Shown: positions 11,679-38,759 of the stretch, piece after piece | Numbering within the stretch: the first letter of the stretch is position 1 | How the letters are laid out: the number at the start of each line of letters is the position of its first letter | NCBI GenBank assembly: GCA_902557735.1 | Contig: CACEBC010000009.1 | Location: 1-64,000 of the forward strand | DNA from: Porticoccaceae bacterium | GTDB lineage: Bacteria > Pseudomonadota > Gammaproteobacteria > Pseudomonadales > Porticoccaceae | Direction of reading: 5' to 3' | DNA length: 64,000 nt | Position numbers and translations under genes: made by a program | Notes under the pieces: model-generated | Database searches by the model: none | Told to the model about the DNA's origin: nothing | The model's input: only the letters and a program-made list of their open reading frames with translations

Positions 11679-12185
11679 ATGCTTGAAACAACAATTTTTT
11701 ATATCTCGGCTGCCGTCGCATTGGCCGCAACCATACTGGCAATGACTAGGACCAACGCCATTCACGCACTCATCTATCTGATCGTCTCCCTCTTAGCAAT
11801 AGCCGTGATATTTTTTGTTGTTGGCGCGCCCTTCGCTGCCGCATTAGAGGTTGTCATATATGCCGGCGCAATCATGGTGCTTTTTGTGTTTGTCATCATG
11901 ATGCTGAATCTGGGGGAAGAAGGGGATGCGCGAGAGCGGAAATGGCTTGAACCAAGCATATGGATTGGTCCAGCCACCCTCTCTGTGGTTCTGTTAATCG
12001 AACTGATCTTTTTAATTGGCTCGGTAGAGGGCCAAGTTTCTCAGGGCGTCGTTTCAGCTAAAATGGTAGGAATTTCACTATTTGGTCCTTATGTCCTAGC
12101 GGTGGAGCTTGCCTCCATGTTACTCCTAGCCGGTATGGTAGGCGCCTTCCATTTAGGCAGGCGACTTTTAGAGAAGAGAGCCTAA
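11679..12185 (+). CDS. nuoJ: NADH-quinone oxidoreductase subunit J
   Basis: A 168-residue membrane subunit with five hydrophobic segments. It carries the conserved TM3 stretch EVVIYAGAIMVLFVFVIMML, which contains the pi-bulge region implicated in coupling in structural studies of Complex I. The start ATG directly follows a TAA of a short upstream ORF; the local ribosome site (ATGGAAAAAAT) is weak. nuoK starts 3 bp after the stop. Confidence 0.96.
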   Translation: MLETTIFYISAAVALAATILAMTRTNAIHALIYLIVSLLAIAVIFFVVGAPFAAALEVVIYAGAIMVLFVFVIMMLNLGEEGDARERKWLEPSIWIGPATLSVVLLIELIFLIGSVEGQVSQGVVSAKMVGISLFGPYVLAVELASMLLLAGMVGAFHLGRRLLEKRA

Positions 12186-12188
12186 TCC

Positions 12189-12503
12189 ATGAATGAGCTA
12201 GCAGTGCCCCTCAACCACTTACTCTTTCTTTCTGGCCTTCTTTTCTCTATTGGTATGTTGGGCGTTATGATAAGACGAAACATTATTTTCATTCTCATGT
12301 CCATTGAGGTTATGTTGAACGCATGCGCGCTAGCCTTCGTCGGGGCCGGAGCCCACTGGGGCCAACCAGATGGGCAAGTAATGTATGTGATGATTCTCAG
12401 TATTGCTGCAGCTGAGGTAGCAGTGGGCTTGGGACTTGTATTGCAAATCCAAAGACGCTTCAAAACGCTGGATATGGACCAAGCAAATCGGATGCGAGGT
12501 TAA
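12189..12503 (+). CDS. nuoK: NADH-quinone oxidoreductase subunit K
   Basis: A 104-residue, three-helix antiporter-like subunit. The membrane-buried glutamates of the family are visible in [14 protein letters not shown] (TM2) and [11 protein letters not shown] (TM3), both part of the central proton relay. The first few residues before [13 protein letters not shown] are slightly longer than in E. coli. nuoL starts with a GTG 2 bp after the stop. Confidence 0.97.
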
Positions 12504-12505
12504 GC

Positions 12506-23174: not shown

Positions 23175-23203
23175 AAAAAAAAAGCCCCGTTGGCGGGGCT
23201 TTT
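23175..23203. terminator. Bidirectional intrinsic terminator between dxs and the lipoprotein gene
   Basis: A perfect 10-bp stem, AAAAGCCCCG (23180-23189) and CGGGGCTTTT (23194-23203), encloses a TTGG loop. An A-run upstream (from 23175) acts as a U-run for minus-strand transcripts; the T-run on the other side is shorter. It can end both the dxs operon and the convergent receptor/lipoprotein operon. Confidence 0.92.
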
Positions 23204-23224: not shown

Positions 23225-26134
23225 CTACTGAATGTTAGGAACCGTTCCGGTCGGCAGCGATCCCGGTAATACCCAACCGTTCCACCAAGGCGTTGTTCCG
23301 GGCTTGACGGCACCGATGAAGTCCGTCGAATCGAAAGAGAAACCTGATCCATTATCCTGAGACGCTATGCCTTCAGCAGCCACGGACGCCGATGCATTGG
23401 TAACAGCGAAATTACTATCCAGAGTTATGTTCTCTTGAATGATGTTAGTTCCGCCGTCTATCGGACTTTCTTTGTTGAAGGTTACAGCTGCGCCATCATC
23501 ACAGAGAAAGTTTTTCATGGTAACCGGCGTATCCTGTTTTGGAGTGCTGCTATCACCATCGGTGTCTGAATCGTCAATACGAGCGCACGTAGTCTTGTAA
23601 CCGGTCACAGCTGTGTTATGGATAGCTGCTGTAACAGAACCTCGAACTCGCATCCCGAATTCTTTACCGGTGTAGTCTGTGCCATTCCAGTTCACTGCAT
23701 CACCACCTATTATGGTAACGTTTGCCACCACACCGGCTGTCTGCGGCACATAATCGCCGTCTGACGAGTTTAGCTCCAGGCCTCGAGGATCGTTACTTCC
23801 TATTGGCTTGCCATTTGCCGTCTGGTTCTTAATTATCATCGCGTATTGGATGTTGCCTTGGAAGCCTTCGTCAAAGTCAATGTCGTCATCGTCATTATCT
23901 GTTAACAATGCATACCTGACATTGACTGTTCCACCAAACCATTCGATACCATCATCCTGATTGCCATGTACCTGGACATATTCGACAAGGGTTCCATGTC
24001 CGACGCCTTGAAGTGTAAGGCCGTTGATTTCGTTGTTTGGTCCGGCAATCAAGCCCCCTTCAGCAATTCGAACGTATCGAATAACGCCGCTGTTGTCAGC
24101 AGGAACATTACCGCCATATTTCCCAACAAAATCACCACCTTCTCCATCCACGTTGCACCACGTTTCTCCCGCGGCAAAACAAGCGCCTGTGTTCCCAGCC
24201 CCATACTGAGGCGCGAAACCTTGAATAACGATACCACCCCACTCACCAGTACCAGCATAATCAGCGTCCAAACTACTGAATGTGATCGGCTTATCGGCTG
24301 TTCCGCTTGCAAAAAGCTTCGATCCGCGAGTCACCAGAAGAACCCCGTCGTCGAAAGCTTTTACGTCAACCCCCGGTCTGATTGTCAGAGTTACCCCAGC
24401 ATCTTGTATAGCGGTCATTCCAGCGGCATCCGATATGGTAATGTTTCCGTTACCAACCTTTACGACGCCTTCTAGTTGGTACTCTGTTCCAGCAACCATG
24501 GTGTAGTCTGCGTCAATGGTGCCCTTCAATGTGCACTGTGTCTTAGCGCTGTTGCATGTCGCGAAACTTGGAGAGTCATCAGCCTCCTCAACGACTGAAA
24601 CGGTACCAGGAAACGTCCAATCAGCCCACCAGGCCTCTGATGCGCTCGGGTCAACTGCACCTATGTACCTCGTCTCATCAAATGCAAATGCAGATCCATT
24701 ATCTAACGCGGTGATCGTAGTAGAGTTATCAAGTGTTGCTGTAGCATTTACTATTGCAATCTTGTCGTCAAAACTAATGCCTTCCGTGACAAGACCCGTG
24801 ATACTTTCCGGTTGCTCCTTGTTAAAGGTGGCCCCTGGGGTATCGCATAAGAAGTTTTGCATTGTGATCGGGGTATCAATTTTTGGCGTGGCACTATCAC
24901 CATCATCATCTGAATCATCAATTCTGGCGCACGTTACTTTGTAGCCAGTCACTGCCGAGTTGTGTATTGCGGCAGTTACAGAGCCCCGCAACCGCATACC
25001 GAATTCTTTTCCGCTGAAGTCGGTTCCATCCCAGTTTGTAGCATCGCCACCGACAATAGTTACATTGGCAACGACCGCGGCAGTTTGGGGAACATAATCC
25101 GCATCCGAAGAATTAGCTTCAATTCCGCGAGGGTCATTTGATCCAATGGGCTTCCCGCCCGAAGTCTGGTTCTTTATGATTAATGCATGCTGGATGTTGC
25201 CTTTATAGCCCTCATCAAAATCTAGATCGTCATCGTCGTTATTCGTTAGAACCGCATGGGTAACGTTTGCTGTCCCCCCAAACCACTCTATCCCATCATC
25301 CTGATTGCCATGGACCTGAACGTAATCAATGATGGTTCCATAGCCGACGCCCTGAAGGGTTAAACCGTTTATTTCGTTATTCGGCCCGGCTATGAGGCCA
25401 CCCTCTGCCATTCTCACATACCGAATAATGCCACTATCATCCGCTGGCAAATTGCCTCCATAGTTTCCTACAAAATCTCCGCCCTCTCCAGCTACGTTGC
25501 AGTACTCGTTCCCGTCAGCCCAGCAAGCTCCGGTGTTACCGGCTCCATACTGAGGCGCAAAACCTTGAATAACGATACCGCCCCACTCACCGGTGCCTGC
25601 ATAGTTGGCATCCGACCCACTGCTGAAGGTAATTGGCTTCGCTTTGTAGGCATCGGCATTCAACTTGGAACCGCGGGTAACCAAAAGCACGCCGTCTGAA
25701 TTTGCCTTAACATGGACACCCGGCTCGATGGTCAAAGTCACCCCTGCGGCCTGAATATCCTGCATTTGAGTCGCTGAAGTAATCTCAACGTTTCCGTTGC
25801 CAACCTTAACAACACCGTCCAGAACGTAACTCACATCCTCAATCAGCGTGTAACTCGAGTCTATAGTCCCGCTAAGGGTTCCGATAGAGCAATCCGAATT
25901 GAAGCTCACAAAACTAGCTTCTGTCACCAACGCACAGTTTCCAGCGGGTGCAGGCGTCTCTTCAACCACTGGCGGAGGCGTCGTCGTGTTATTTTCGACA
26001 CTGTTATCCACTGTAATTGGATTTTCAACGGTGACGTTAATGTCACCCGCGCTTTCGCTATTTCCGTCACAACCGCCAAGGCCTGCAAGCACTATGGATG
26101 CCAGCAGACTGATTGCGTATGAGTTTGTTTTCAT
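23225..26134 (-). CDS. Lipoprotein with two beta-helix-like modules, Pho-operon partner of a TonB receptor
   Basis: A 969-residue secreted protein. The signal peptide ends in a lipobox (VLAGLGGC, lipidated Cys22) followed by Asp at +2, then a disordered Thr/Pro/Glu linker to about residue 66. The rest is two ~430-residue copies of one module (roughly 82-505 and 533-969). Each has VLLVTRGSKL, EWGGIVIQGFAPQYGAGNTGAC, EINGLTLQGVG, VQVHGNQDDGIEWFGGT, GSNDPRGIE/L and GSVTAAIHN. The repeated short-strand pattern suggests a right-handed beta-helix; Asp-rich turns (NNDDDDLDFDEG, DDSDDDGDS) suggest Ca binding. No phosphatase motif was recognised and function is unknown. AGGAAGG precedes the ATG. It lies 83 bp after the TonB receptor gene, very likely in one Pho-controlled operon. 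Confidence 0.85.
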   Translation of the reverse strand: MKTNSYAISLLASIVLAGLGGCDGNSESAGDINVTVENPITVDNSVENNTTTPPPVVEETPAPAGNCALVTEASFVSFNSDCSIGTLSGTIDSSYTLIEDVSYVLDGVVKVGNGNVEITSATQMQDIQAAGVTLTIEPGVHVKANSDGVLLVTRGSKLNADAYKAKPITFSSGSDANYAGTGEWGGIVIQGFAPQYGAGNTGACWADGNEYCNVAGEGGDFVGNYGGNLPADDSGIIRYVRMAEGGLIAGPNNEINGLTLQGVGYGTIIDYVQVHGNQDDGIEWFGGTANVTHAVLTNNDDDDLDFDEGYKGNIQHALIIKNQTSGGKPIGSNDPRGIEANSSDADYVPQTAAVVANVTIVGGDATNWDGTDFSGKEFGMRLRGSVTAAIHNSAVTGYKVTCARIDDSDDDGDSATPKIDTPITMQNFLCDTPGATFNKEQPESITGLVTEGISFDDKIAIVNATATLDNSTTITALDNGSAFAFDETRYIGAVDPSASEAWWADWTFPGTVSVVEEADDSPSFATCNSAKTQCTLKGTIDADYTMVAGTEYQLEGVVKVGNGNITISDAAGMTAIQDAGVTLTIRPGVDVKAFDDGVLLVTRGSKLFASGTADKPITFSSLDADYAGTGEWGGIVIQGFAPQYGAGNTGACFAAGETWCNVDGEGGDFVGKYGGNVPADNSGVIRYVRIAEGGLIAGPNNEINGLTLQGVGHGTLVEYVQVHGNQDDGIEWFGGTVNVRYALLTDNDDDDIDFDEGFQGNIQYAMIIKNQTANGKPIGSNDPRGLELNSSDGDYVPQTAGVVANVTIIGGDAVNWNGTDYTGKEFGMRVRGSVTAAIHNTAVTGYKTTCARIDDSDTDGDSSTPKQDTPVTMKNFLCDDGAAVTFNKESPIDGGTNIIQENITLDSNFAVTNASASVAAEGIASQDNGSGFSFDSTDFIGAVKPGTTPWWNGWVLPGSLPTGTVPNIQ
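23230..25890 (-). repeat. Tandem internal duplication within the lipoprotein gene
   Basis: Two ~1.3-kb copies of the same coding module, about 24600-25890 and 23230-24545, are arranged head to tail. They remain close at DNA level in places; for example, the stretches near 24200-24245 and 25545-25590 differ at only a few third positions. The copies keep the same order of motifs. Unequal recombination between them could add or remove a module. Confidence 0.8.
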
Positions 26135-26217
26135 GGTTACCTTCCTAGTTTAAGTTAGTGGTTTTGTTACTTTGTTCAATAAACATCATGAAGAGCGCTT
26201 TGAGAGCTGGACCGGCC

Positions 26218-29200
26218 TCAGAACTCATAACTAAGCGACGCACTAATTGATGTTCCAGTTTCATACAGCTCAATCTCGCGATTGTTTTGTACATAGGAGA
26301 CAGGCTCATTCGTTAAATTTCTGACCTTGAACTTTAGGACCCAGTGATCCGAGATCAAATTCTCATAAGTCAAATCTATGACTAGTCGACCCTTCTCCAT
26401 GATTGGCCCTCTAGCCGCTCCGCGCGCTATTCGATATATGCGATCATCAAAGTGATTCACCAAGACAGTAATCTTCTGGTCGCTCGGAAAATGGTCGAGG
26501 CCTAATTGAAGATTTGCCAAGTACTCGGATTGTGCTTGAAGCGGCCGCCCGTTTGCCGTTTCGCCCTCAAGTCTCAATTGGTTGTCAGACAGATCAACAG
26601 TAGAATCGATATAGGACAAATTCCCGTTAAGGAAGATTAAAAAGTTATCCCTTTCCATCAGAGTGGTGTTGAAATCGAGTTCAATACCCTCTAGTTCTGC
26701 ATTTTTTTGATTCTTGAACGTAATTGCAGAGGCTGCTTGAGAGCCGGAGGAGTCGGCTATCGACCGTTCGACGGGGTTATCAATGTCTTTCACAAAAAAG
26801 GCCAGAGAGGCACGACTAGACTCTCCGAAATAATACTCTACCCTGAGATCAAGGTTCTCTATTTCCGCCACAGCAAGATTTGAATTGCCGATGATGACAT
26901 CGTCAGTTTTTGGATCAAATACCCTTGAGTCGGAGCGCTCAATCAACCCGGGATAGGACACCGTCTTACTTGCACCCAGACGAAATTGCAGCTCCTCAGT
27001 TGGACGCCATGTCACATTAACGGCTGGAAACCAGTCATCAGTTTCCAAGATGCCGTTGTTTTGCGGTGCGTTAGGGTAGAGTATTTCCTGAGTAAAGTCT
27101 TCGAATCTCGCACCCAACTCGACCGTCCAATCGACGCCAATCTCGTTGACCAGTTTAAAATAGTAAGCCGTTGTTTCCTCCAAAGATTCATAGGAGTCAG
27201 TAGCGGTGGTGGTGGTTCTTAATCGCCAGGCATCTGCAGCGATGTTCTCGATGCTAAGCACCGCCTCCACACCATCGGCAACACCTCTATCTACCGGATA
27301 ACTACCTTGACGAAAACTGAATCGCCACATATCCACGTCACGCTCTTTCTCTGAGTAGAGTGCCCCGAGCGTGAGGGTAGAAAAATTCTCACTGCCCCAG
27401 TCCGCAGATAGATCAAAATCAAAACCAACATCTTTACTGACCTCATTTAAGTCAGACCAGCGTCTTTCAACGGATGAGGGCACTAACTGGCTACTCTGGA
27501 TATAGTAGGATCTTCTGTCTGGTTCCAACCGATCTGTTTCTGAGTAACCGAGGCGCCAGTCAAACTTACTCTCCATTTCACCGATGGAAAACTCGTTGAA
27601 ACCATTCAAACTTGTTGAGAACAGCTGACGCTGGACGTATTCGAGAATAACGTCCGTCAGATCTCTCTCCTCCCGACTCTCAATGCCCGAGGACCTTCGC
27701 GTCACATCATCGGTCGATCGCAATAAAGTCGTCTTCGAAAGAATCTCACCACCGTCAAACTCATATCCGACAACGCCATAGCCTGAGACAACGACATTGT
27801 CCTTGCTTCTGAGGTAGCCGCCGGTGACACCGTTGGGGTTATCTAAGACCGCGTCACCTCTGTCGCCCATGGATCTGCCATAGCTACCGGATAAGTAGAA
27901 GCCTAGCTCACCATCTTGGAACTCTAAACGGTCGCCGAAATTGATATCGAATCCTATATCAGGGTGAGCCGTGACCTGATCAATGTCATAGTCCGGTCGG
28001 AAAGAGAGCGCATACGCCATCGCAACAGGTTGCGGCGTGCAACCATCATAAAGACCGGCTATGTCCTGTCCCGTCTGGATTATATTAGTGGTTCGGTCCG
28101 GGTCGCCCTGAGAGTAGTCGTAGGCAGGGCAAATAACCAAGCGTGTCCCTCTCTCAGTCCCTTCGAGCACAGTGCCATGCATGTCACGCAAACCGTTATC
28201 AAAGCCGAGGGCTTCGGATTCGCTGTCTCGGTAACCTAAAACATCATCGCCAGTGAAATCCGAGTTAAAGCCCATTGAGACTGATATTTTGGCCACTCTC
28301 TCATCGGGCAGTCCTTTCGTATTGATACTGATCGATCCGCCAGTCGTAGTGGCAAGCTGATCTGCAGAAAAAGACTTTTGTACCTCGATCGTTTCAACAA
28401 TTCCGGTAGGAAACAAATCCAATTGGATATCGCGTCTCATAGGGTCAGTGCTGGGCATCATGATCCCATTGAAGTTGGTTGCTATGTATCGTCCGTCCAA
28501 GCCTCTGACATTAGCAAACTTATCGTCAGTGACCGACAAACCAGAAATTCGGCCAAGAACGCCGGCAATGTCGCTGTCACCAAAGCGTGACAATTGCTCG
28601 GCATCGATAGCACTGACAATTGTGGTGGCATAACGCTCGATGCTCTCAGTATCATCGGTGGCATTAAAAACACCTAGCACGACCACTTCTTCAAGACGTT
28701 GGGGCGACAAGTCTATCTCCTGGCCATCAGGACCGGTATCAAGCAGACGGAAGCTTACATTAACCCCTCCGCCAGCAAAGAGCCTGACATCCGAAGCCAT
28801 AGCGCTCTCAAAATTGGGATGTTCGACCTCGATCTCGTGCTTTCCACGATTTAGAACAAGCGAGTAAATACCTCTGGAATCGGTGTAAACTTCCGTGTCC
28901 AGATTTTCCACAAAAACCGCTGCGTTTGGCACTGGCGTCCCGTCGCTCGAAATAACCTGTCCTGCCACCAAGCCATAAACGGCATCATCTGATCTATACA
29001 CACCTATCTGAATGTCAGGTTTTTCCCCCTCCGCCCTCTTGAAAATAACAGTTGCTTCTGATTCTGCCTGTTCCTCTACGGGTATCGAAACAGGGAAGCG
29101 AGAATCATCGTTAACGAGGTCTACCTGATAATTTCCAGGCGCCAAGTCTGTTTCAAGCATGCCGGCATCGTCCGAAGAGCCAATCAGCTCATTGCCAATG

Positions 29201-29325
29201 TAGATCTGCACGCCTTTCACGGGTGCTTCATCGAGAAAAATTTGGATGAAAACTGGTTCTGCGAGGACAGCTGGCGCCCAAAGCGCAGATAGAAATAACG
29301 CCATGGAAACGATTCGTTTAGTCAT
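26218..29325 (-). CDS. TonB-dependent outer-membrane receptor, Pho-regulated
   Basis: A 1035-residue receptor. It has a signal peptide (cleavage near AVLA/EP), a PEGA-like beta domain (~25-95), a carboxypeptidase-regulatory-like domain (~118-175, GQVISSDGTPVPNAAV, DSRGIYSLVL), a plug (~220-345, with FANVRGLDGRYIATNFNG and ATTTGGSISINTKG) and a 22-strand-type barrel ending in SASLSYEF with the C-terminal Phe of outer-membrane proteins. Such receptors import scarce large substrates using TonB energy. The substrate is not evident. Six Pho-box half-sites lie 130-200 bp upstream, and the cotranscribed lipoprotein is the likely surface partner. The next gene upstream is phoU. Confidence 0.92.
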   Translation of the reverse strand: MTKRIVSMALFLSALWAPAVLAEPVFIQIFLDEAPVKGVQIYIGNELIGSSDDAGMLETDLAPGNYQVDLVNDDSRFPVSIPVEEQAESEATVIFKRAEGEKPDIQIGVYRSDDAVYGLVAGQVISSDGTPVPNAAVFVENLDTEVYTDSRGIYSLVLNRGKHEIEVEHPNFESAMASDVRLFAGGGVNVSFRLLDTGPDGQEIDLSPQRLEEVVVLGVFNATDDTESIERYATTIVSAIDAEQLSRFGDSDIAGVLGRISGLSVTDDKFANVRGLDGRYIATNFNGIMMPSTDPMRRDIQLDLFPTGIVETIEVQKSFSADQLATTTGGSISINTKGLPDERVAKISVSMGFNSDFTGDDVLGYRDSESEALGFDNGLRDMHGTVLEGTERGTRLVICPAYDYSQGDPDRTTNIIQTGQDIAGLYDGCTPQPVAMAYALSFRPDYDIDQVTAHPDIGFDINFGDRLEFQDGELGFYLSGSYGRSMGDRGDAVLDNPNGVTGGYLRSKDNVVVSGYGVVGYEFDGGEILSKTTLLRSTDDVTRRSSGIESREERDLTDVILEYVQRQLFSTSLNGFNEFSIGEMESKFDWRLGYSETDRLEPDRRSYYIQSSQLVPSSVERRWSDLNEVSKDVGFDFDLSADWGSENFSTLTLGALYSEKERDVDMWRFSFRQGSYPVDRGVADGVEAVLSIENIAADAWRLRTTTTATDSYESLEETTAYYFKLVNEIGVDWTVELGARFEDFTQEILYPNAPQNNGILETDDWFPAVNVTWRPTEELQFRLGASKTVSYPGLIERSDSRVFDPKTDDVIIGNSNLAVAEIENLDLRVEYYFGESSRASLAFFVKDIDNPVERSIADSSGSQAASAITFKNQKNAELEGIELDFNTTLMERDNFLIFLNGNLSYIDSTVDLSDNQLRLEGETANGRPLQAQSEYLANLQLGLDHFPSDQKITVLVNHFDDRIYRIARGAARGPIMEKGRLVIDLTYENLISDHWVLKFKVRNLTNEPVSYVQNNREIELYETGTSISASLSYEF

Positions 29326-29459
29326 TAATGTTTACCCATCCGCCGTGTGGTTCGAAATCGAAAAGATTTTAACCATCTGAATTAACGTTATTTTTACATC
29401 GATTAACTCTCATCTGAACCGAAAAAGCATCTCGAATGTCGAAAGAATAAAGGCGTTAA

Positions 29460-29521
29460 ATGAATATAACGTGACAAAAAAGTGAATTAAAATTTACAAT
29501 AAGATGACAAAACTATGACAG
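29460..29521 (-). promoter_or_regulatory. Pho-box array upstream of the TonB receptor operon
   Basis: Read on the minus strand, half-sites TGTCAT, TGTCAT, TGTAAA, ATTCAC, TGTCAC and ATTCAT begin at exact 11-bp steps (plus-strand left ends 29515, 29504, 29493, 29482, 29471, 29460). The first pair, CTGTCAT-N4-TTGTCAT, is almost the PhoB consensus. The spacing and sequence are those of direct-repeat PhoB sites, so phosphate-starvation induction is expected for the receptor and lipoprotein. Confidence 0.88.
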
Positions 29522-29602: not shown

Positions 29603-30301
29603 CTAATGCGTGTCATCAAAAACTGCTTGATGCCGGATATCCGTTCCTCGTACGACGAAAACAATTTGCTCGCAAAGATTCTTGGCATGATCGCCAACTC
29701 GCTCAAGGGATCTAATAACCCACAAAATATTGATCACGCGGCTAATACTCTTAGGGTCTTCCATCATATAAGTTACTGATTCACGCAATGCCGTCTGATA
29801 ATCTAAATCAATTTGCTGATCTTGATTGAACGTTCTTAAAGCAGCCTCAGTATCGAACCGAGCGAAAGCATCTAAAGCATTATTTAAAATGCTCAGCGCT
29901 GCCTTGCCAAGATGCCTCACCTCGGTGAAACCCCATGGATTTTCTTGTTCAGAAAGTAGAATTGCTTGTTTAGCGATCTTTTTAGCCTCATCACCTATTC
30001 TTTCAAGATCGTTGACCGCCTTAGAAACCATCATTACAAGTCTCAGGTCGGTCGCCGCAGGCTGCCTTCGTGCTATAATAGTCAAACAGGCTTCATCGAT
30101 CTCAAGCTCCATCTCATCTACCCGTTTATCTCGCTCAATCACGCTATCGGCCAATCCGCTATCCACCTTAACAATCGATTGAATAGAATCCTGCAGCTGC
30201 TGTTCTACCATACCTCCCATCGCCATTAAGAGGGTACGTATTTCATCCAACTCCTCGTCAAACTGCTTTACAATATGATTTTCAAGCGCGATGTCTTCCA
30301 A
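29603..30301 (-). CDS. phoU: Phosphate-specific transport system regulator PhoU
   Basis: A 232-residue all-helical protein with two PhoU repeats. The metal-binding family motifs occur as DLRLVMMVSKAVNDLERIGDEAKKIA and, in the second repeat, ISRVINILWVIRSLERVGDHAKNLCE. PhoU links the Pst transporter to PhoR to keep the Pho regulon off when phosphate is plentiful. The start is a TTG, supported by AAGGAG at good spacing. It is the last gene of pstSCAB-phoU, 13 bp after pstB. Confidence 0.96.
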   Translation of the reverse strand: MEDIALENHIVKQFDEELDEIRTLLMAMGGMVEQQLQDSIQSIVKVDSGLADSVIERDKRVDEMELEIDEACLTIIARRQPAATDLRLVMMVSKAVNDLERIGDEAKKIAKQAILLSEQENPWGFTEVRHLGKAALSILNNALDAFARFDTEAALRTFNQDQQIDLDYQTALRESVTYMMEDPKSISRVINILWVIRSLERVGDHAKNLCEQIVFVVRGTDIRHQAVFDDTH

Positions 30302-30314
30302 AACAAACTCCTTC

Positions 30315-31202
30315 TTAGCCGAAACGGCCCGTAATATAGGATTCTGTAAGATTATGTTCAGGCATGGTAAATACCTGTTCAGTTGGATTCACCTCAATGA
30401 GTTTACCAAGGTGAAAATAGGCTGTTCGGTGAGAAACTCTCGCGGCCTGTTGCATATTATGTGTCACAATCGCAATCGTAAAATTCTGGCTAAGTTCTTC
30501 AATGAGTTCCTCTATCCTTGCCGTTGCAATTGGATCGAGCGCTGAGCAAGGCTCATCCATCAAAATCACCTCGGGACTGACGGCAATCGCCCTGGCAATG
30601 CAAAGGCGCTGCTGTTGCCCGCCGGAGAGGCCCGTACCGGGCTGCTGCAATCTATCCCTGACCTCATCCCAAAGACCGGCTCGTCGAAGACTTTCCTCCA
30701 CAATCTCATCTAGCTCATATCGCGAATCTGTTAGGCCATGAATCTTGGGACCATAGGCAACATTGTCATAAATGGATTTAGGAAAGGGGTTAGGCTTTTG
30801 GAAAACCATCCCGACCCTTGCTCTCAATTCCACAACATCCAGCTTGGGAGAGTATAGATCCTGTCCATCCATACTGATGTGGCCCTTGACCCGGCAACCT
30901 TCAATAGTATCATTCATCCGGTTCAGTGACCGCAGGAGAGTCGACTTACCACACCCGGATGGACCAATCATGGCAATCACCTGATTTTCAGTAATATCGA
31001 CCGACGCGTCAAAGATTGCCTGCTTGTTTCCGTAAAATACGCTCACATTCTTGATCGACATTTTCGCATTCTCAGAAAAACAAGTTCCAACAGTTACATG
31101 ATCTTGAATATCATTTAAGAAATTCGTTTGATCACCACTCATCAAATGCTGTGAACGTGTATTAGAGTCTGTTTCGGCTGCGGAGACTACAGTAGTTGAC
31201 AT
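30315..31202 (-). CDS. pstB: Phosphate ABC transporter ATP-binding protein PstB
   Basis: The ATPase of the high-affinity phosphate importer. Walker A is GPSGCGKST at residues 80-88, the ABC signature is LSGGQQQR and Walker B is VILMDEP. The protein is 295 residues, with about 47 residues before the usual start ([11 protein letters not shown]). The longer ATG is kept because AAGGA lies six bases upstream and it sits 13 bp after pstA, while no better site precedes the inner Met. The Ser/Thr-rich extension has no recognised function. Confidence 0.96.
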
Positions 31203-31214
31203 TTCAAATCCTTA

Positions 31215-32495
31215 TCACCAGCGTCGTTCTAGTTTTTTGCGGAGCCAAACGGCAGATAGATTCATCGTTATCAAAAAAGCCAGCAACACCATAATAGCTG
31301 CTGATGTCTTCTCAATAAAGGCCCTCTCAGGGCTATCCGCCCAAAGAAAGATCTGTACAGGCAGCACTGTGGCTGGGTCAGTAAAACCGCCAGGCACGTC
31401 TGCAATAAACGCCACCATGCCTATCATAAGCAACGGCGCAGTTTCTCCCAAGGCCCTTGCCATTCCAATTATGGAGCCGGTCAGCATGCCAGGCATCGCC
31501 AATGGTACCACATAATGCAGCACCACTTGGTTTGGAGAAGCACCCAGCCCCAGAGCAGCTTCCCGAATGGATGGCGGAACAGACTTAATTGCTGCACGGC
31601 TGGTAATAATAATGGTTGGCAATGTCATCACTGCCAGAACCAAGCCCCCTAAAAACGGTATTGAACGCGGCACATTGAAAAAGTTTATAAATATAGCGAG
31701 TCCAAGCAATCCAAAAATTATGGATGGTACCGCTGCCAAATTGTTGATATTTACCTCGATGAATTCAGTCCAACGATTTTTTTCCGCAAATTCTTCCAAG
31801 TAAATCGCAGCTGCTATACCAATAGGAAATGAGAGAAGAAGGGTTATAACGAGTGTAAAAAAAGACCCAAACATTGCGCCCTTAATTCCTACCTGCTCGG
31901 GTTCCCGAGAATCTCCTCGACTAAGGAAGTTTGCATTGAATTGCAGCTCAATTCTATCCTGATCAATGAGCTGCTTGACTCGCTCTAGCTGAGCCAGAGA
32001 AAGTCGAGCAGTGTAGGCTCGCCCTTTCAACAAACTCTTGTAGTAAGTATCGATATCATCATCAGCAAGAATCCAAAACTTTTCAGTTTGATCCAACAAC
32101 TCAGGCTCGCTCAGAAGCCTTTCCTTGAGATCGTAACCGGCTCCATTACTGACCAAAGCGTAAAGCTCCCTTCTTTCTGATCTTTTTCGCACTTGGGGAA
32201 ATTCTTGCCTTAAAGCGGTTTTGTGCAGTCTATCCCAATCAGCCAACATTAACGCCCCCTCATCAGACAGGTCGTCTATGCCAAGCACCTCTTGATCATA
32301 ATTGATTTCGAGCTGAATATAGGTTGCTGAAAAAGCGCTCTTTCCTTTAAGAAAAATATCGGCAAAAAGAACCAAGACTGCCAGAAGTCCCAGCGTCACC
32401 GCCGCAATTCCACAAAGGCGAAATGCCTTTTCAGCACGATACCGGGATACCAGCGACCTTTGAATTCTTTCTAAATTTCTACTGGGTTTACTCAT
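31215..32495 (-). CDS. pstA: Phosphate ABC transporter permease PstA
   Basis: A 426-residue inner-membrane permease. After a first TM (~25-48) there is a long, mainly hydrophilic periplasmic insert to about residue 205, then the canonical binding-protein-dependent transport domain with five helices and the EAA loop (IREAALGLGASPNQV). The insert makes it much longer than E. coli PstA (about 296 residues); such enlarged PstA proteins occur in marine gammaproteobacteria. Its ATG overlaps the end of pstC by 8 bp. Confidence 0.95.
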   Translation of the reverse strand: MSKPSRNLERIQRSLVSRYRAEKAFRLCGIAAVTLGLLAVLVLFADIFLKGKSAFSATYIQLEINYDQEVLGIDDLSDEGALMLADWDRLHKTALRQEFPQVRKRSERRELYALVSNGAGYDLKERLLSEPELLDQTEKFWILADDDIDTYYKSLLKGRAYTARLSLAQLERVKQLIDQDRIELQFNANFLSRGDSREPEQVGIKGAMFGSFFTLVITLLLSFPIGIAAAIYLEEFAEKNRWTEFIEVNINNLAAVPSIIFGLLGLAIFINFFNVPRSIPFLGGLVLAVMTLPTIIITSRAAIKSVPPSIREAALGLGASPNQVVLHYVVPLAMPGMLTGSIIGMARALGETAPLLMIGMVAFIADVPGGFTDPATVLPVQIFLWADSPERAFIEKTSAAIMVLLAFLITMNLSAVWLRKKLERRW

Positions 32496-33876
32496 ATTGT
32501 TCTCGAAATCGTTTCACGACCTGAAGGGCTATCACGTTTAGGATTAAAGTAACAATGAATAACATGAGTCCAAGGGCAAATGCTGCCAGCGTTTTGGGAC
32601 TGTCAAACTCCTGGTCACCCGTTAGCAGGGTGACAATCTGTACCGTCACGGTGGTAACAGACTCGAGCGGATTCGCTGTGAGATTCGCAGCGAGACCAGA
32701 GGCCATGACAACGATCATCGTTTCCCCAATTGCTCTTGAAATAGCCAGCATAATCCCTGCCACGATGCCCGGCAATGCAGCTGGAATAACGACACGCCAG
32801 ACTGTCTCGGAATGCGTGGCGCCCATAGCCAAGGATCCGTCTCTCATTGCTTGTGGAACCGCAGTAATAACGTCATCCGCAAGAGAAGAGATGAACGGGA
32901 TAATCATGACGCCCATCACAATCCCAGCCGCAAGCGCGCTTTCGGATGATACGGATAAGTCAAAACTTTCGCCGATTGTGCGCAAATATGGGCCCAAGGT
33001 AAGAGCCGCGAAAAATCCATAAACCACTGTTGGAATGCCTGCTAGAACTTCTAAAGCGGGCTTCGCATAAGTTCTGGTTGATCGGTGCGCATACTCCGCT
33101 AGATAAATGGCTGACATCAAACCGACAGGGACCGAAATGCACATTGCTACAGCCGAAACGAGCAAGGTGCCAACAAATAATGGTACCGCTCCAAAACTCC
33201 CAGAGGAGCCAACCTGATCGTCTCTGATCGCTGTCTGCGGGCTCCATTCTAGACCAAAAACGAAATCAAATACTGGCACAGACTTAAAAAATTGCAGCGA
33301 CTCGAAGATCACCGATAATAAGATCCCAAGAGTGGTAAAGATAGCCACCACGGCGCAGCAAAAAAGTACGTATTGGGCCACACTTTCAACCGGCTGACGA
33401 GCTCTAAATTCAGTCGACAAATATGACCTTCCCCAACTAAATCCCATCAGCGCGGTACACGAAACAACAGCCGCCATAGTCCAGCGTGAGAATTCGTTGT
33501 AACGAAGAAGTTGTTTCGCCGCCGCTAAAATCTCAGTTGGCTGTCCGTCTCGCGGCAGGACACCCAAAGCCAAGTTATTTATTTTATTTGCGAGTAAGGT
33601 CGTGCTTGAGGTGTCTGTTGGGAGCAGATGTTCTGGAAGTGACTCAAAAGTTAATCTGATAATCACATAGTTTTCCAGCGTCATCCAGATTATCAGAACT
33701 AAAAGCGCTGGCAGCGCGGTCCAAATAGCAGTGAAATAACCGTGATAATTTGGGAGCGAATGTAAGGAATTAAGTCCACCTGAGATGTGAGCGAGCGCCT
33801 CAGAACGGCGTCGCCCTAGGAAGAACGCCAAGACGGAGGCACCTAACAAAAGGAGGAACATTTCACTCGATTGCAT
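32488..33876 (-). CDS. pstC: Phosphate ABC transporter permease PstC
   Basis: A 462-residue inner-membrane permease partner of PstA. It has extra N-terminal TM helices and a periplasmic segment (to ~residue 215) before the standard permease core, which contains the EAA loop (MRDGSLAMGATHSETV). Like PstA it is longer than the enterobacterial protein. It follows pstS by 73 bp. Confidence 0.95.
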   Translation of the reverse strand: MQSSEMFLLLLGASVLAFFLGRRRSEALAHISGGLNSLHSLPNYHGYFTAIWTALPALLVLIIWMTLENYVIIRLTFESLPEHLLPTDTSSTTLLANKINNLALGVLPRDGQPTEILAAAKQLLRYNEFSRWTMAAVVSCTALMGFSWGRSYLSTEFRARQPVESVAQYVLFCCAVVAIFTTLGILLSVIFESLQFFKSVPVFDFVFGLEWSPQTAIRDDQVGSSGSFGAVPLFVGTLLVSAVAMCISVPVGLMSAIYLAEYAHRSTRTYAKPALEVLAGIPTVVYGFFAALTLGPYLRTIGESFDLSVSSESALAAGIVMGVMIIPFISSLADDVITAVPQAMRDGSLAMGATHSETVWRVVIPAALPGIVAGIMLAISRAIGETMIVVMASGLAANLTANPLESVTTVTVQIVTLLTGDQEFDSPKTLAAFALGLMLFIVTLILNVIALQVVKRFREQYE

Positions 33877-33949
33877 AAGGCGCTATCAAACCTCATAAAA
33901 TTGGCATGCAAAGCAACAAATTGGGCGTCACTTTGCCAACTTATTCACA

Positions 33950-35008
33950 CTATTTCAATGGTTCATCACCAGTCATCGGCAACAACGCTCGAGTATTTTT
34001 ACCAGTGAGCCGCCTCTGTTCGGTTGACAGCGGGATCATCCCCTTTTCGGCAAGGTATCCCTCCTCGCCCCAGGCTTTTTCGCTAGTAAATTCATCAAGA
34101 AAACCCTGGATACCGGGCACTACGCCTACGTGTGCTTTTTTCACATAAAAATAAAGCGGCCGTGATACGGGGTAAGATTTATCTGCGATAGAGTCAAATT
34201 CAGGGGCAACCTCTTCTATAAACGCTCCATGAACGGAATCGGCGTTCTGATCAAGAAAGCTGAAGCCGAATATACCCAGGGCTTTTGGATTCGCCTGAAG
34301 TTTCTGAACGATAAGATTATCGTTTTCACCGGCTTCTATGAAGTGCCCATCCTCCCTAATCGTGTGGCAGATGCTTTTAAAGGCTCTTTTGTCCGTCTTC
34401 TCCATTGCTGCCAACCAGGGAATCGCCTTGCAACCTCCTTCCATCGCCAATTCGACAAATGCATCCCGGGTACCCGATGTTGGTGGTGGGCCCAACACTT
34501 CTATCTTATCATCCGGAAACGACTCATTTATTTGCTTCCAAGTCATGTAGGGGTTGTCGATTAACTCCCCTTCTTTGTCTCCGGGAACTTTAGCGGCCAG
34601 TGCCAAAAAGATCTCTTTGCGAGAAAGTTTCATAACTGGGCTTTCGACAGAGTTTGCCATTACGAGCCCATCGAAACCCACTTGTACCTCGACAATTTCC
34701 GAAACACCATTCTTTTGACATTGGTTAAACTCAGACTTTTTCATCCTGCGGGATGAATTCGTGATATCTGGAAACTGCGTGCCGATACCGGAGCAGAATA
34801 GTTTCATCCCGCCACCCGACCCGGTCGACTCTATTTTTGGAGTCGCTTTGCCACTGCTTCTTCCATAACGCTCCGCTACCACGGTAGAGAAAGGGTAGAC
34901 CGTTGAGGACCCAACCACTTCAATATTTTCTCTGGCAGACGTCGTGGCTGCGAGTGACAACACCAGTGTGATTGCTAAAAAGACTTCGAAAGTTTTTTTG
35001 ATAGACAT
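33950..35008 (-). CDS. pstS: Phosphate-binding periplasmic protein PstS
   Basis: A periplasmic solute-binding protein with a signal peptide (cleavage near TSA/RE). The phosphate-binding loops are visible as VVGSSTVYPFS near the mature N-terminus, ESTGSGGGMKLFCSG and PPTSGTRDAFVEL. The ATG at 35008 (MSIKKTF) is chosen because GGAG lies seven bases upstream; the GTG seven codons earlier would add polar residues before the signal peptide. It is the first gene of the pst operon and has a clear Pho box upstream. Confidence 0.95.
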   Translation of the reverse strand: MSIKKTFEVFLAITLVLSLAATTSARENIEVVGSSTVYPFSTVVAERYGRSSGKATPKIESTGSGGGMKLFCSGIGTQFPDITNSSRRMKKSEFNQCQKNGVSEIVEVQVGFDGLVMANSVESPVMKLSRKEIFLALAAKVPGDKEGELIDNPYMTWKQINESFPDDKIEVLGPPPTSGTRDAFVELAMEGGCKAIPWLAAMEKTDKRAFKSICHTIREDGHFIEAGENDNLIVQKLQANPKALGIFGFSFLDQNADSVHGAFIEEVAPEFDSIADKSYPVSRPLYFYVKKAHVGVVPGIQGFLDEFTSEKAWGEEGYLAEKGMIPLSTEQRRLTGKNTRALLPMTGDEPLK

Positions 35009-35043
35009 GTCTGACTCCGTTTTAGACACTTTAAAATCAATTT

Positions 35044-35072
35044 ATGAAAAGTTTGTGACATTAAAATGACAG
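35044..35072 (-). promoter_or_regulatory. Pho box upstream of pstS
   Basis: On the minus strand CTGTCAT-TTTA-ATGTCAC matches the PhoB box closely (35055-35072), and a weaker third half-site TTTCAT (35044-35049) follows at the same 11-bp step. The array ends 35 bp before the pstS ATG, leaving room for a -10 element. This predicts PhoB activation of pstSCAB-phoU. Confidence 0.92.
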
Positions 35073-35082
35073 TATTTTTTAA

Positions 35083-35121
35083 TGCCACAAAAATGTAATA
35101 ACTTTGCCATATATTTGCCAA
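35083..35121 (+). promoter_or_regulatory. Degenerate Pho-box array facing the porin gene
   Basis: On the plus strand TGCCAC, TGTAAT, TGCCAT and TGCCAA begin at 35083, 35094, 35105 and 35116, exactly 11 bp apart, in the same intergenic region as the pstS box but pointing the other way. Individual half-sites are weaker than in the pstS box. It probably drove the porin gene, now a pseudogene. Confidence 0.6.
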
Positions 35122-35185: not shown

Positions 35186-36199
35186 ATGAAATCAGCCATT
35201 CGAATAACGGCGCTAAGCTTTGTTCTCGGGTTCTCTTGCAACCCAATGGCCGCGGGACCGATCGACGGAAAAACCTATGGAAAAATAAACATATCTGTGG
35301 TGAACGATGATCAGGATGAAAACAAGCACTGGCAATTGGACAGCAATGCATCACGTTTTGGCTTTGCCGGTAAAACAGAAATCACTGATAGTCTTTTCGC
35401 CATCTACAAAGCCGAGTTTGAAATGTACGCTGATGATGGGAATAAGACATCGAGCACCACCGCTTGTGTTGATGACTCCGCTGGGGATGAATCCTGCCGG
35501 GTTGACCGTGATCGACTAACGCTGTCGCAACGAAATATTATGCTTGGAATAATGGGAAATTTCGGCACCATCTGGGCAGGCAAACACGACTCCCCTACAA
35601 AACTCACATTGAGCAAAGTTGATCTTTTTAATGATCTTCAAGGCGACGTTAAACACACGTTTAAGGAGAAAACCGACTGTCCAATGTATTTGCTTACACT
35701 TCACCAGAGCTGAATGGCTTATCCGCAACCATAGCCATAGTCCCCCGTGAGGGCAGTGATATAGATGGAGATGGGAGCAGTGACACCGGTATAGCTGACG
35801 GCATGTCCTACTCGGTAAGCTATTCAGGAGAGAATCTATATCTAGCGTTGGCCGGAGATCAGGACGTTGACAAACAGGATTTGTTGCGCCTGATTGGTCG
35901 ATATAAAATTGACTCAAGGCTCTGGGTTTCATGCTTCAGCAAAACGAAAACGATCTGAGCGGTCTGGATGAATCAGGCTACTTTTTAAGTGCCTCTTACC
36001 AAATCGAAATTGCATTCTAAAGGCACAATATGGTCGCGTTGAGGATGATAGTACAGGGAACGAGGAAGACACTCTTTCTGTGGGTGAAGATTATAAACTG
36101 TCAAATAAGACCAAACTATTCGTCTTTTAAACAAAAAATGAGGGTTCCAATGAACAAGACTGGAATTCACTGGGGTTGGGGATAGAACACAAGTTTTAA
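35186..36199 (+). pseudogene. Gram-negative porin, broken by frameshifts and a stop
   Basis: A trimeric-porin-type gene that can be followed across its full length only by changing frame. It starts with a signal peptide (AMAAG) and KTYGKINISV, SRFGFAGKTEI and GTIWAGKHDSP in frame one. The continuation is in other frames: ENRLSNVFAYTSPELNG (shift near 35670), FMLQQNENDLSGLDESGYFLSASYQIE (shift near 35925), NCILKAQYGR (shift near 36010), then KLSNKTKLFVF, an in-frame TAA where Tyr is expected, and TKNEGSNEQDW to the terminal GIEHKF with the C-terminal Phe. At least three frameshifts and one nonsense change are needed. A good ribosome site (ATGGAGAAATAA) and a Pho-like promoter remain. Sequencing error could explain one shift, hardly all. 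Confidence 0.85.
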
Positions 36200-36224
36200 T
36201 TCAAAAAACCAAATTTTAAACGAG

Positions 36225-36747: not shown

Positions 36748-38019
36748 TTATGTCCTCGGCAGTTTGCACAAAAACTCAGCGCCCTCGCCGATTCGGCTGC
36801 TAACTATGAGGCTACCGTTATATCGATTAAGCGTATGCTTTACAATTGCCAATCCCAATCCAGTCCCACCAGAGTGTGAGTTTCGGCTTGCATCAACCCG
36901 GTAAAATCGCTCGGTAAGGCGAGGTATTTCAGTCGAATCAATACCTACGCCATCATCTCGGATGGATACATTTAAGAAGTTGGCATCCTCACCGGCATGT
37001 ATGTCTATATTTGCTCCCTTTGGATTATGATTCACGGCGTTGAACACAATATTACTGAACGCGCTTCGTAATTCGTTCGCATTTCCGAGAATCTCCAACC
37101 GGCTGTCACAATCGAGTTTGATGACATGTTTTCCTGCGCTCAAACGTCTGGCGTCATTGACAATATCATCCAGCAACGGCTTGAGTTTAACCGGATTTAT
37201 CGGCTGGGGCGGGGTTTCCGACTCTAGCCTCGATAATAAGGCTAAATCATCAGCTAATGCCTCCATTTTTTCTACTTGAAGGCTTATTTGAGCGAGGACC
37301 TTGGCCTCGCTCTTGGGTACGTCTGATAAATCTCGCAGGGTCTCCACATACCCTTTAATGACGGTCAGTGGTGTTCTTAATTCATGGGAAACGTTTTCCA
37401 CAAACTCTTTCCGCAAAGTCTCCAGATTATCTAGTTCGGTAACATCTGTAACGATAAGGACTATTTCACCCTGTCCCACATTAGAACCGAAGAATTCGAG
37501 CTGAACATTAGGTTCGGAGCCAGAAGGTATCCGGAGAGGCTCTTTAAAACGTGCCTTTGAAACAAACTTTATGAAATCGGGATGCCTAACAAAATTCGTG
37601 ATGGGACTACCTCGGTCGGTCTTGCGGAAACCTAACAGGGACTCGGCAGAGCCATTCCACCAGTCCAAGCTTAAATCTCCATTCAATATAACCATACCCT
37701 GGTCTAGAGACTTGGTCATTCGCCGAACACGCTTGACGGTGAACCGCAGTTTTTCTTTTGAGCGTCGTCGCAACTGCTTTAGTCGCTCTAATAGGCGAAT
37801 AACCTCGATCCACGCACCATTGTTGAATGGTGGCGCACCTCTCATGCCTCCTTCCGCCCAGCGAAAAATCGCAAAACCTTTTCGCATAAACCATATTAAA
37901 TAAACACTCAGTCCCAGCAAGAAAAATTCAAGCGGTGCCTCGAGTAGAATTCCGATCAACAGAGAAAAAAGCATTAAAGCGGAAAAGCGTCGAGCTTCAG
38001 TCTGAATGCCGTATCGCAA
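36748..38019 (-). CDS. phoR: Phosphate regulon sensor histidine kinase PhoR
   Basis: A 423-residue membrane kinase. Two hydrophobic segments at ~14-45 are followed by a charged linker, a PAS domain (~100-195) and the dimerisation/phosphoacceptor helix with His212 in FVENVSHELRTPLTV. The ATPase domain has N (FNAVNH), G1 (IRDDGVGID) and G2 (GGTGLGLAIVKH) boxes. Lack of a large periplasmic sensor domain is normal for PhoR, which reads phosphate through PstSCAB-PhoU. It lies 23 bp after phoB, in the same operon. Confidence 0.96.
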   Translation of the reverse strand: MRYGIQTEARRFSALMLFSLLIGILLEAPLEFFLLGLSVYLIWFMRKGFAIFRWAEGGMRGAPPFNNGAWIEVIRLLERLKQLRRRSKEKLRFTVKRVRRMTKSLDQGMVILNGDLSLDWWNGSAESLLGFRKTDRGSPITNFVRHPDFIKFVSKARFKEPLRIPSGSEPNVQLEFFGSNVGQGEIVLIVTDVTELDNLETLRKEFVENVSHELRTPLTVIKGYVETLRDLSDVPKSEAKVLAQISLQVEKMEALADDLALLSRLESETPPQPINPVKLKPLLDDIVNDARRLSAGKHVIKLDCDSRLEILGNANELRSAFSNIVFNAVNHNPKGANIDIHAGEDANFLNVSIRDDGVGIDSTEIPRLTERFYRVDASRNSHSGGTGLGLAIVKHTLNRYNGSLIVSSRIGEGAEFLCKLPRT

Positions 38020-38042: not shown

Positions 38043-38759
38043 TTATTTTGTCCGGGTAGAGAATCTGTATCCGGCTCCCCGAACAGTCTGAACATATTTT
38101 TCATGTCCTGCAACCGAAATTGCCTTCCTAAGCCGACGAATATGAACGTCAACCGTTCGCTCGTCCAGATAGACGTTGGCGCCCCAAACATGGTCTAGAA
38201 TCTGGTCACGTGAGTAGACTCGTTCTTGGTGAGTAAGAAAAAACTGCAACATTCGGTACTCGGTTGGTCCAATGTCAACGGATTCATCGCAAATGCTAAC
38301 CCTATGGCTCTCTGGATCAAAAAGCATTTCACCGACCTTTATTGGTTCGCTGGGTTCTGTCACTGTTGAGCGTCTGATGATAGCCTTGATCCGAGAGATT
38401 AGCTCTTTCGGGGAGAAGGGTTTGGATATAAAGTCATCAGCTCCCGAATCTAGGCCAGTAATTTTACTGTCTTCTGATGTTTTAGCGGTTAGTAAAATCA
38501 CAGGGATCTTTTCTGTCAAAGGGTCTCTCCTCAGACGCCTAAGCAATTCAAGACCAGTGGTCCCGGGCATCATCCAATCAAGGAGCACAACATCAGGCTG
38601 TGAGTCAATGATTATAGCGCGACCTTCTTGCGAATCACTTGCCTCAAGAACATTGAATTTGGCTGTCTCAAGAGCCAGAGACACCATCTCTCTGATGGCA
38701 GCCTCATCATCAACAATCAAAACCGTCTTTCTGCGCACCTCGGCTTCCTCTTGATTCAT
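38043..38759 (-). CDS. phoB: Phosphate regulon response regulator PhoB
   Basis: An OmpR-type response regulator, 238 residues. The receiver has the acidic pocket DDE at 17-19, phosphoacceptor Asp61 (LLDWMMPG) and Lys in FISKPFSPKEL. The winged-helix DNA-binding domain ends with ERTVDVHIRRLRKAI and TVRGAGYRF, whose recognition helix reads the TGTCA half-sites. A Pho-box array directly upstream predicts positive autoregulation. The four arrays found in this window are its expected targets. Confidence 0.97.
   Translation of the reverse strand: MNQEEAEVRRKTVLIVDDEAAIREMVSLALETAKFNVLEASDSQEGRAIIIDSQPDVVLLDWMMPGTTGLELLRRLRRDPLTEKIPVILLTAKTSEDSKITGLDSGADDFISKPFSPKELISRIKAIIRRSTVTEPSEPIKVGEMLFDPESHRVSICDESVDIGPTEYRMLQFFLTHQERVYSRDQILDHVWGANVYLDERTVDVHIRRLRKAISVAGHEKYVQTVRGAGYRFSTRTK

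Follow-up and report, generated by a model that had tools for sequence, protein, structure and literature searches.

To our knowledge, it is still unsettled how, in phosphate-poor seas, bacteria carry larger organic phosphorus compounds across the outer membrane. A locus of a marine SAR92-type Porticoccaceae bacterium poses this question in a concrete form: directly behind the pst-phoU genes lie a gene for a TonB-dependent receptor and a gene for a large lipoprotein, and we asked what this pair does there. We analyzed a stretch of 64,000 nucleotides containing the locus (contig CACEBC010000009.1, positions 1 to 64,000; hereafter the window), which lies within contig C9 of a source assembly of 1.95 Mb in 69 contigs with an estimated completeness of 69%. 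The pair is preceded by a strong Pho-box array and has matched relatives in other phyla, and in our best reading it would capture and import a phosphorus-bearing compound.

Organization and promoter of the pair

On the minus strand of the window, a PstS-like gene, pstC, pstA, pstB, phoU, the receptor gene, and the lipoprotein gene follow one another in this order, with phoR and phoB further upstream (Table 1). The receptor and lipoprotein open reading frames (ORFs) are both open and are separated by 83 bp, a gap in which the hairpin scan listed no terminator-like site. The pair has an upstream region of its own, the 277 bp after phoU. A first-pass annotation, made from the letters of the window, had described a two-gene operon beside pstSCAB-phoU with strong PhoB half-sites upstream and its own terminator, and each of these three features was recovered. 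The terminator is a 10-pair hairpin followed by a T run; the scan as a whole yielded 7 terminator-like sites versus 6.6 in shuffles, which is no excess.

The upstream region contains six Pho-box half-sites spaced every 11 bp from 29521 down to 29460 (CTGTCAT, TTGTCAT, TTGTAAA, AATTCAC, TTGTCAC, and TATTCAT), an array with the form of an E. coli-type Pho box. Its first two units, CTGTCAT-N4-TTGTCAT at 29504-29521, form the top two-unit Pho site on both strands of the 64 kb (20.3 bits), and the second-best site of the window lies 5' of the PstS-like gene. The two-, three-, and six-unit scores were reached by none of 1000 dinucleotide-preserving shuffles of the 277-bp region. We set the scoring matrix manually, after the E. 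coli-type consensus (CTGTCAT repeats in an 11-bp register), and sites were ranked within the window, the homologue loci, and the control stretches.

Structural features of the receptor and the lipoprotein

Pfam recognized the barrel (PF00593, 96.8 bits, above cut-off) and the plug of the receptor. The two extra N-terminal domains proposed in the first-pass annotation fared differently: the carboxypeptidase-regulatory-like domain was confirmed (PF13620), and the domain called PEGA-like appeared as a beta domain in the AlphaFold2 model and matched no Pfam family at an expectation value (E) up to 1. The receptor model has the fold of TonB-dependent transporters (template-modeling score TMt of 0.48-0.79 among the 50 best matches), the closest solved folds being mostly haem and siderophore receptors, plus others; such neighbors of a predicted structure say little about the substrate. 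Sequence comparison was more informative. The window receptor scored 146-215 bits against five partner receptors from other groups (Alteromonas, Indioceanicola, Sphingomonas, and two Bacteroidota/Chlorobiota loci) versus at most 10.4 bits against eight other receptors of its own genome (8 of 25 other matches). Judged by these scores, the partner receptors form a separate family, and the pairing of receptor and lipoprotein is a matched one across phyla, in line with the pairing proposed in the first-pass annotation.

The lipoprotein consists of two predicted beta-helix units in tandem, and its halves (residues 67-517 and 516-969) were 69.6% identical over 441 residues. The acceptor Cys22 of its lipobox was invariant in 16 of 16 aligned homologues. 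Neither a Pfam nor an NCBIfam family was matched at E up to 1, which agrees with the earlier statement that this lipoprotein is not SusD-like, and a search of PDB sequences, with the single sequence or a profile, returned nothing relevant. Across 16 lipoproteins, GH28 and other lyase or glycosidase Pfam families were absent at the same threshold; the weak matches comprised Cupin_3 (7/16, best 1.2e-5), Peptidase_M29, Cupin_2, and Beta_helix (3/16, best 0.048). In a model of moderate quality (predicted local distance difference test score, pLDDT, 65.7), both units resembled right-handed parallel beta-helices, and second-look alignments (range Z 16-20) matched a phage tailspike enzyme (Z 20.3), alginate epimerases (19), polygalacturonases (16-18), and an alginate lyase. 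Because whole-chain Foldseek scores were poor (template-modeling score <0.2 by the length of the query), only the fold class is claimed here, as a moderate prediction.

Over 199 units from 159 proteins, D279, D280, E283, D301, D302, D305, and E339 were conserved in 97-98%, and these residues, many glycines, W184, E217, N256, and T267 were conserved in at least 95%. N256, D279-D280, and D301-D302 are spaced by about 22 residues, close to the strand spacing of the model, and the resulting acidic ladder could correspond to a putative ligand cleft.

Table 1. Features of the receptor-lipoprotein locus, in window coordinates.
Feature	Position	Strand	Basis or remark
Six Pho-box half-sites, 11-bp register	29460..29521	-	0/1000 shuffles match score; contains best two-unit site of the window
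TonB-dependent receptor, 1035 aa	26218..29325	-	PF00593 and PF07715 above cut-off; AlphaFold2 model, pLDDT 77.3
N-terminal beta domain 1, residues 24-110	28996..29256	-	Beta strands in AlphaFold2 model
CarboxypepD_reg domain, residues 120-194	28744..28968	-	PF13620, 51.2 bits vs 32.3
Plug, residues 233-330	28336..28629	-	PF07715, 39.2 bits vs 23.9
Double beta-helix lipoprotein, 969 aa	23225..26134	-	ORF; beta-helix in moderate model
Signal peptide, residues 1-21; lipobox LGGC, acceptor Cys22, Asp at +2	26072..26134	-	Judged by eye
Predicted beta-helix unit 1, residues 67-517	24584..25936	-	Unit hidden Markov model
Predicted beta-helix unit 2, residues 516-969	23228..24589	-	Unit hidden Markov model
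Acidic turns of unit 1, residues 253-307 (NEIN / NQDD / DDxxD, about 22 residues apart)	25214..25378	-	199 units, 159 proteins; 16-sequence alignment
Acidic turns of unit 2, residues 701-755	23870..24034	-	199 units, 159 proteins; 16-sequence alignment
Intrinsic terminator	23180..23203 (23203-23180)	-	10-pair hairpin and T run
phoU	29603..30301	-	PF01895, 148.7 bits
pstB, pstA, pstC, and PstS-like gene	30315..35029	-	Order and conservation in relatives; pstB, pstA, and pstC named from sequence reading
PstS-like gene	33950-35029	-	PF12849, 159.4 bits
Pho box 5' of PstS-like gene	35044..35072 (two-unit site 35055-35072)	-	Second-best site of the window
phoR	36748-38019	-	TIGR02966, 352.1 bits vs cut-off 334.2
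phoB	38043-38759	-	TIGR02154, 323.7 bits vs cut-off 296.2

Phosphate linkage across homologues

Homologues were carried by 68 of 194 genomes in an order sample, 51 of 398 in a phylum sample, and 20 of 61 in the family, the window's own genome being included each time and one of the 20 family carriers holding only a scar. The nearest named relatives were SAR92-clade and Porticoccaceae records, taken from a set of the best 80 of 307 loci, which is not a random sample. Among the 18 nearest loci (L039-L056), pst genes preceded the pair in 14; two had no pst gene in the fetched stretch (L049 and L052), and two began inside the lipoprotein (L051 and L055). Fifteen of the 19 scored promoters of this group reached at least the 95th percentile of 46 background promoters, a count depressed by split ORFs that were counted separately (second pieces in L045, L048, and L053). 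L050, labeled Porticoccaceae bacterium NAT43, contained a piece 99% identical to the window. L039, labeled Flavobacteriaceae bacterium TMED48, had a locus of the SAR92 type whose lipoprotein shared 81% identity with that of the window, and this contig was probably misbinned.

In the order sample, Pst, PhoU, or PhoBR genes occurred at 15 of 78 homologue loci versus none of 40 control stretches (Fisher p 0.0012), counting strict matches to PstS/C/A, PhoU, PhoB, or PhoR within about 10 kb on each side (less at contig ends); the controls were hand-picked positions on longer contigs in genomes of the same sample. A stronger test scored the promoter of the pair, or of a lone lipoprotein or receptor, with promoters <250 bp dropped. 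At least the 95th percentile of 302 control promoters was reached by 44 of 79, and at least the 99th by 22; 39 of the 79 also passed the 95th percentile of 439 background promoters from the same loci. The signal extended to loci without Pst/PhoBR genes (35/65 promoters at or above the control 95th percentile and 18/65 at or above the 99th), and by gene order it comprised receptor-first pairs (16/25), lipoprotein-first pairs (20/34), orphan lipoproteins (8/18), and lone receptors (0/2). With wrong spacings of 8-14 bp, 5-19 of the 79 promoters passed, and with 19 of 20 permuted motifs, 4-14; the twentieth, TGTCACT, passed 42/79 and is nearly a one-base register shift of the true motif. The p values serve only as guides, because related genomes are not independent.

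The loci L057-L118 are called Bacteroidota here, including one Chlorobiota-labeled record (L116). Pst or PhoB/PhoR matches were present at 17 of these 62 loci, under a loose 100-bit threshold for PhoB/PhoR and with no control stretches, and seven homologues lay beside both phoB- and phoR-like genes (L057, L059-L061, L063, L088, and L092).

The neighbors were also considered as a source of substrate clues, and this was abandoned: nearby co-directional genes included no constant phosphatase, nuclease, or phytase, most of them having been named from sequence reading and not domain-scanned (L197, L198, and L200 are annotated). Recurrent co-directional neighbors included housekeeping, type II secretion, and TonB-ExbBD genes. 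By sequence reading, hemC- and hemD-like genes lay downstream of lipoproteins with no adjacent receptor in L165, L169, L175, L178, and L180, and a small phosphatase-/arsenate-reductase-like gene and a Na/Pi (inorganic phosphate) cotransporter-like gene lay 3' of a Saprospiraceae pair (L081:10144-12262).

Unit number and phylogeny

Counting cut proteins, 124 of the 159 lipoproteins had one unit, 30 had two, and five had three. A tree was built from 159 of the 199 units, with about three quarters of the L065-L118 units left out. One clade (support 100) held 50 units, mostly receptor-first, among them those of the window, SAR92, and Cellvibrionaceae; another (support 99) held 92, namely most lipoprotein-first gammaproteobacterial units, those of Bacteroidota and alphaproteobacteria, and three receptor-first units. 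The remaining 17 fell outside both clades, most of them receptor-first. First and second units of SAR92 lipoproteins shared one group of 26, which places the doubling, or its homogenization, within that lineage. A genome of the same genus encodes a single-unit lipoprotein of 526 residues at the same place (L252:9243-10823), so unit number varies within the genus of the window.

Of 21 plasmid records found, four were inspected. An Alteromonas macleodii plasmid carries phoB-phoR-PstS-like-oxygenase-lipoprotein-receptor-DUF3450-ExbB-ExbB-ExbD-TonB, with a three-unit lipoprotein and an oxygenase of the 2-oxoglutarate-Fe(II) (2OG-Fe(II)) type. A Marinobacter plasmid has a lipoprotein without an annotated receptor alongside.

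Alternative pair types behind phoU

The site behind phoU, usually as far as dxs, was read in 14 family genomes besides the window. Five carry the window's pair type (L248, L249, L250, L252, and L253), L253 being cut inside the lipoprotein with phoU out of view and L249 stopping before dxs; L248, L249, and L250 are apparently the same contigs as L041, L040, and L046 and are not independent of them. Three carry the lipoprotein-first type at this site (L149, L243, and L244), with Pho boxes of 18.9, 21.8, and 17.0 bits, respectively. Six have no pair (L254, L255, L256, L258, L259, and L260; phoU of L256 was not called as an ORF). In one of these, L254, from the same genus and with a PhoU 92% identical to that of the window, the final 23 codons and stop of the lipoprotein stand right behind phoU (9459-9527), a remnant that is, as its sequence reads, a deletion scar.

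Eight further family stretches were off-pattern or uninformative (L157, L245, L246, L247, L251, L257, L261, and L262). L251 is a short contig with a receptor-first pair, no pst genes, and a Pho score of 10.8 bits; L257 ends at phoU; and L261 and L262 have phoU with other neighbors and no pair. By gene order and identity, the two pair types occurred together in no family genome, many of these being drafts. That one Pho-linked site has seen both loss and replacement suggests a common kind of job for the two types, which look interchangeable for a phosphate-linked task.

Third genes at this site vary. A large GH81-domain protein is encoded 3' of the pair in L248 (4069-8526), L250 (4887-8327), and L243 (14982-18680) and 3' of phoU in L258 (10609-15282), which has no pair there; a PhoD-like phosphatase gene lies 3' of the lipoprotein in L252 (7471-8550) and L253 (7723-9144), both from the window's genus. 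Both were rejected as substrate clues, being inconstant and having no Pho box in the cases scored. In L260, polyphosphate kinase and Ppx/GppA-family genes occupy the site behind phoU (10446-14011).

Relation to described low-phosphate systems

Our literature search on ElpS, Flavobacterium lipoproteins, SAR92, Alteromonas, and GH81 covered little of preprints and subscription papers and, among the matches listed, gave no title on the function of such pairs beyond the reports cited here. In Caulobacter crescentus, phosphate starvation induces the lipoprotein ElpS (CC0170), whose gene adjoins those for the TonB receptor CC0171 and type II secretion; ElpS is displayed on the cell surface and is released in a manner that requires type II secretion (PMC2996285). 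In F. johnsoniae, the lipoproteins FI and FII are encoded with TonB-dependent transporters in PUSIII/PUSIV, loci that Pi depletion strongly induces and of which PUSIV lies with phoBR; sequence links both lipoproteins to ElpS, and modeling links them to polygalacturonase (PMC8115612). According to a 2024 study, the PhoB regulon of Caulobacter includes TonB receptors and type II secretion (PMC11208175). ElpS/CC0171 and FI/FII are already described, and the suggestion of an undescribed system in the first-pass annotation does not stand.

We judged kinship with ElpS and the F. johnsoniae proteins through proxy loci of like gene arrangement. Over aligned parts, the window lipoprotein was 34% identical to that of Sphingomonas, 31% to Indioceanicola, 36% to L088, and 43% to L116 (E 2e-37 to 5e-102), and the order lipoprotein-receptor-type II secretion recurred in the Sphingomonas and Indioceanicola plasmids. 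On this sequence-based footing, the window pair belongs with the described low-phosphate pairs ElpS/CC0171 and FI/FII. It shares with the former a lipoprotein beside a TonB receptor, induced by phosphate starvation on the ElpS side. ElpS-type loci are lipoprotein-first and adjoin type II secretion genes, a trait that FI/FII loci do not have, whereas the window locus is receptor-first with a doubled lipoprotein behind pst-phoU, and the region between ispA/dxs and phoB contains no type II secretion genes. PUSIII/PUSIV likewise combine a Pi-depletion-induced receptor with a lipoprotein modeled as polygalacturonase-like, but they belong to another phylum, in which the loci studied here have no E. 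coli-type Pho box, are lipoprotein-first, and are mostly single-unit. SusCD and PusCD are comparable by analogy as presumed capture-import pairs of receptor and lipoprotein; unlike SusCD, the window pair has no SusD-family lipoprotein (Pfam, E up to 1), and its receptor scored 17.5 bits against the SusC/RagA model TIGR04056, far below the cut-off of 368.25. New in the window variant are the tandem units, the receptor-first order, and the integration in the pst locus, to which the present study adds the cross-phylum matched pair, the gammaproteobacterial Pho-box survey, and the alternative pair types behind phoU.

Proposed function and alternatives

The reading that we consider best, and reasonably probable, is that the pair captures a phosphorus-bearing compound, perhaps glycan-linked, and imports it in a TonB-driven manner; the tie to phosphorus acquisition made in the first-pass annotation is supported. 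On exhaustion of phosphate, PhoB would bind the six-half-site array and switch on receptor and lipoprotein together, in analogy to the phosphate-starvation induction known from relatives. The lipoprotein would act as a capture arm exposed at the surface of the cell, a location known for ElpS, and the acidic ladder in each beta-helix unit would bind, and may cut, the compound, most likely a phosphorylated glycan or a similar polymer. The dedicated receptor, physically paired with the lipoprotein and perhaps docking it by its N-terminal domains as proposed in the first-pass annotation, would carry the bound piece through the outer membrane, after which periplasmic phosphatases would release phosphate for uptake by the neighboring PstSCAB.

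Several observations weigh against this reading. We infer the substrate, no phosphatase gene accompanies the pair constantly, and the acidic cleft is no obvious phosphate binder, unless it binds through a metal or a glycan part. The lipoprotein model is only moderate, and Asp at position +2 is an inner-membrane retention signal under the rule given in PMC2996285, so surface location would need another route; a gene for GspD, the type II secretin, is present above cut-off on contig C39 of the same genome. That report also describes CC0171 as constitutive and intracellular phosphate in Caulobacter as unchanged. In the family, four lipoprotein-first pairs are found apart from the pst genes; their Pho scores are 14.3 (L157, where a PhoB gene is adjacent), 2.8 (L245, hence without a Pho box), 13.4 (L246), and 15.8 bits (L247). 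Homologues in the order sample were mostly away from Pho genes (63 of 78 loci had no Pst/PhoBR gene in the fetched stretch), against the expectation of the first-pass annotation, but in line with it they were not devoid of Pho boxes, as the 35 of 65 promoters above showed. Thirty-five of the 79 order-sample promoters had no site above the control 95th percentile, and wrong-spacing scores still exceeded the controls by rank (p 0.018 to 4e-9), indicating that half-site-like sequence outside the register contributes to the signal. The Bacteroidota loci had no E. coli-type Pho box (3/61 at the background 95th percentile, chance level), nor had any of 16 PhoB-like promoters within them.

Three other functions were weighed. 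Under phosphate control, the pair may acquire glycans as such, the lipoprotein binding or cutting a phosphorus-free polysaccharide (e.g., beta-1,3-glucan) and the receptor importing oligosaccharides, in which case Pho control would mirror the release of glycans by phosphate-starved algae. The beta-helix class is rich in polysaccharide enzymes, and the GH81 genes, whose family we take to be beta-1,3-glucanases, follow the pair by about 80 bp in L248 and at a greater distance in L250 and L243. However, the window has no GH81 gene between the pair and dxs, L258 has the GH81 gene without the pair, the four GH81 genes scored had no Pho box (6.1-9.8 bits), two relatives have the PhoD-like gene at that place, and none of the 16 lipoproteins matched a glycosidase or lyase family. 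Even with the modeled likeness of FI/FII to polygalacturonase (PMC8115612), we regard import of a phosphorus-free glycan as unlikely.

Alternatively, the lipoprotein may be a surface accessory that aids secreted phosphatases with no handover to the receptor, which would be a sensor or an independent importer. This accords with the raised secreted alkaline phosphatase activity that accompanied ElpS overproduction, as given in PMC2996285, and with the PhoD-like genes of L252 and L253. Such a loose association leaves unexplained why the partner receptor family is kept across phyla, and in the window's own genome, at 69% completeness, PhoX was not found and PhoD was matched only below cut-off; this role appears quite improbable. 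Uptake of iron or another metal for metal-dependent phosphatases of the starvation response, with the acidic lipoprotein as metal binder, seems to us more doubtful still. Acidic ladders suit metal ions, the Alteromonas locus encodes a 2OG-Fe(II) oxygenase, and haem and siderophore receptors make up most of the solved structures nearest to the receptor model, but such neighbors are expected of any TonB-dependent receptor, and similarity in sequence to the eight other receptors of the genome is negligible. The low-Pi loci of F. johnsoniae, lipoproteins included, are reported to be tightly repressed under iron limitation (PMC8115612).

A broken porin beside pstS

A porin gene divergent from pstS (window 35186-36200, plus strand) is broken, with an ORF of 175 residues, whereas the corresponding ORF spans about 290-340 residues in L041, L043, L050, and L254, some being truncated by the end of the stretch. 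Either the gene has decayed or the assembly is in error. Pho-like half-sites lie 5' of it at 35082-35121.

Implications

The import of a phosphorus-bearing compound, if it applies to the homologues at large, would make these pairs an additional outer-membrane importer design with a function analogous to that of SusCD, in which a Pho-controlled beta-helix lipoprotein with one to three tandem sites captures phosphorus-bearing glycans or polymers across Pseudomonadota and Bacteroidota, and of which two distantly related types swap at the pst locus of the SAR92 family. We offer this generalization tentatively, as a possibility that may well not hold. The compact two-gene unit, the strong Pho-type promoter, the conserved candidate site, and the presence or absence of the pair among close relatives make the question of outer-membrane import testable. 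From the promoter survey, a group of proteins that has no Pfam family would seem to belong regularly to the Pho response of gammaproteobacteria.

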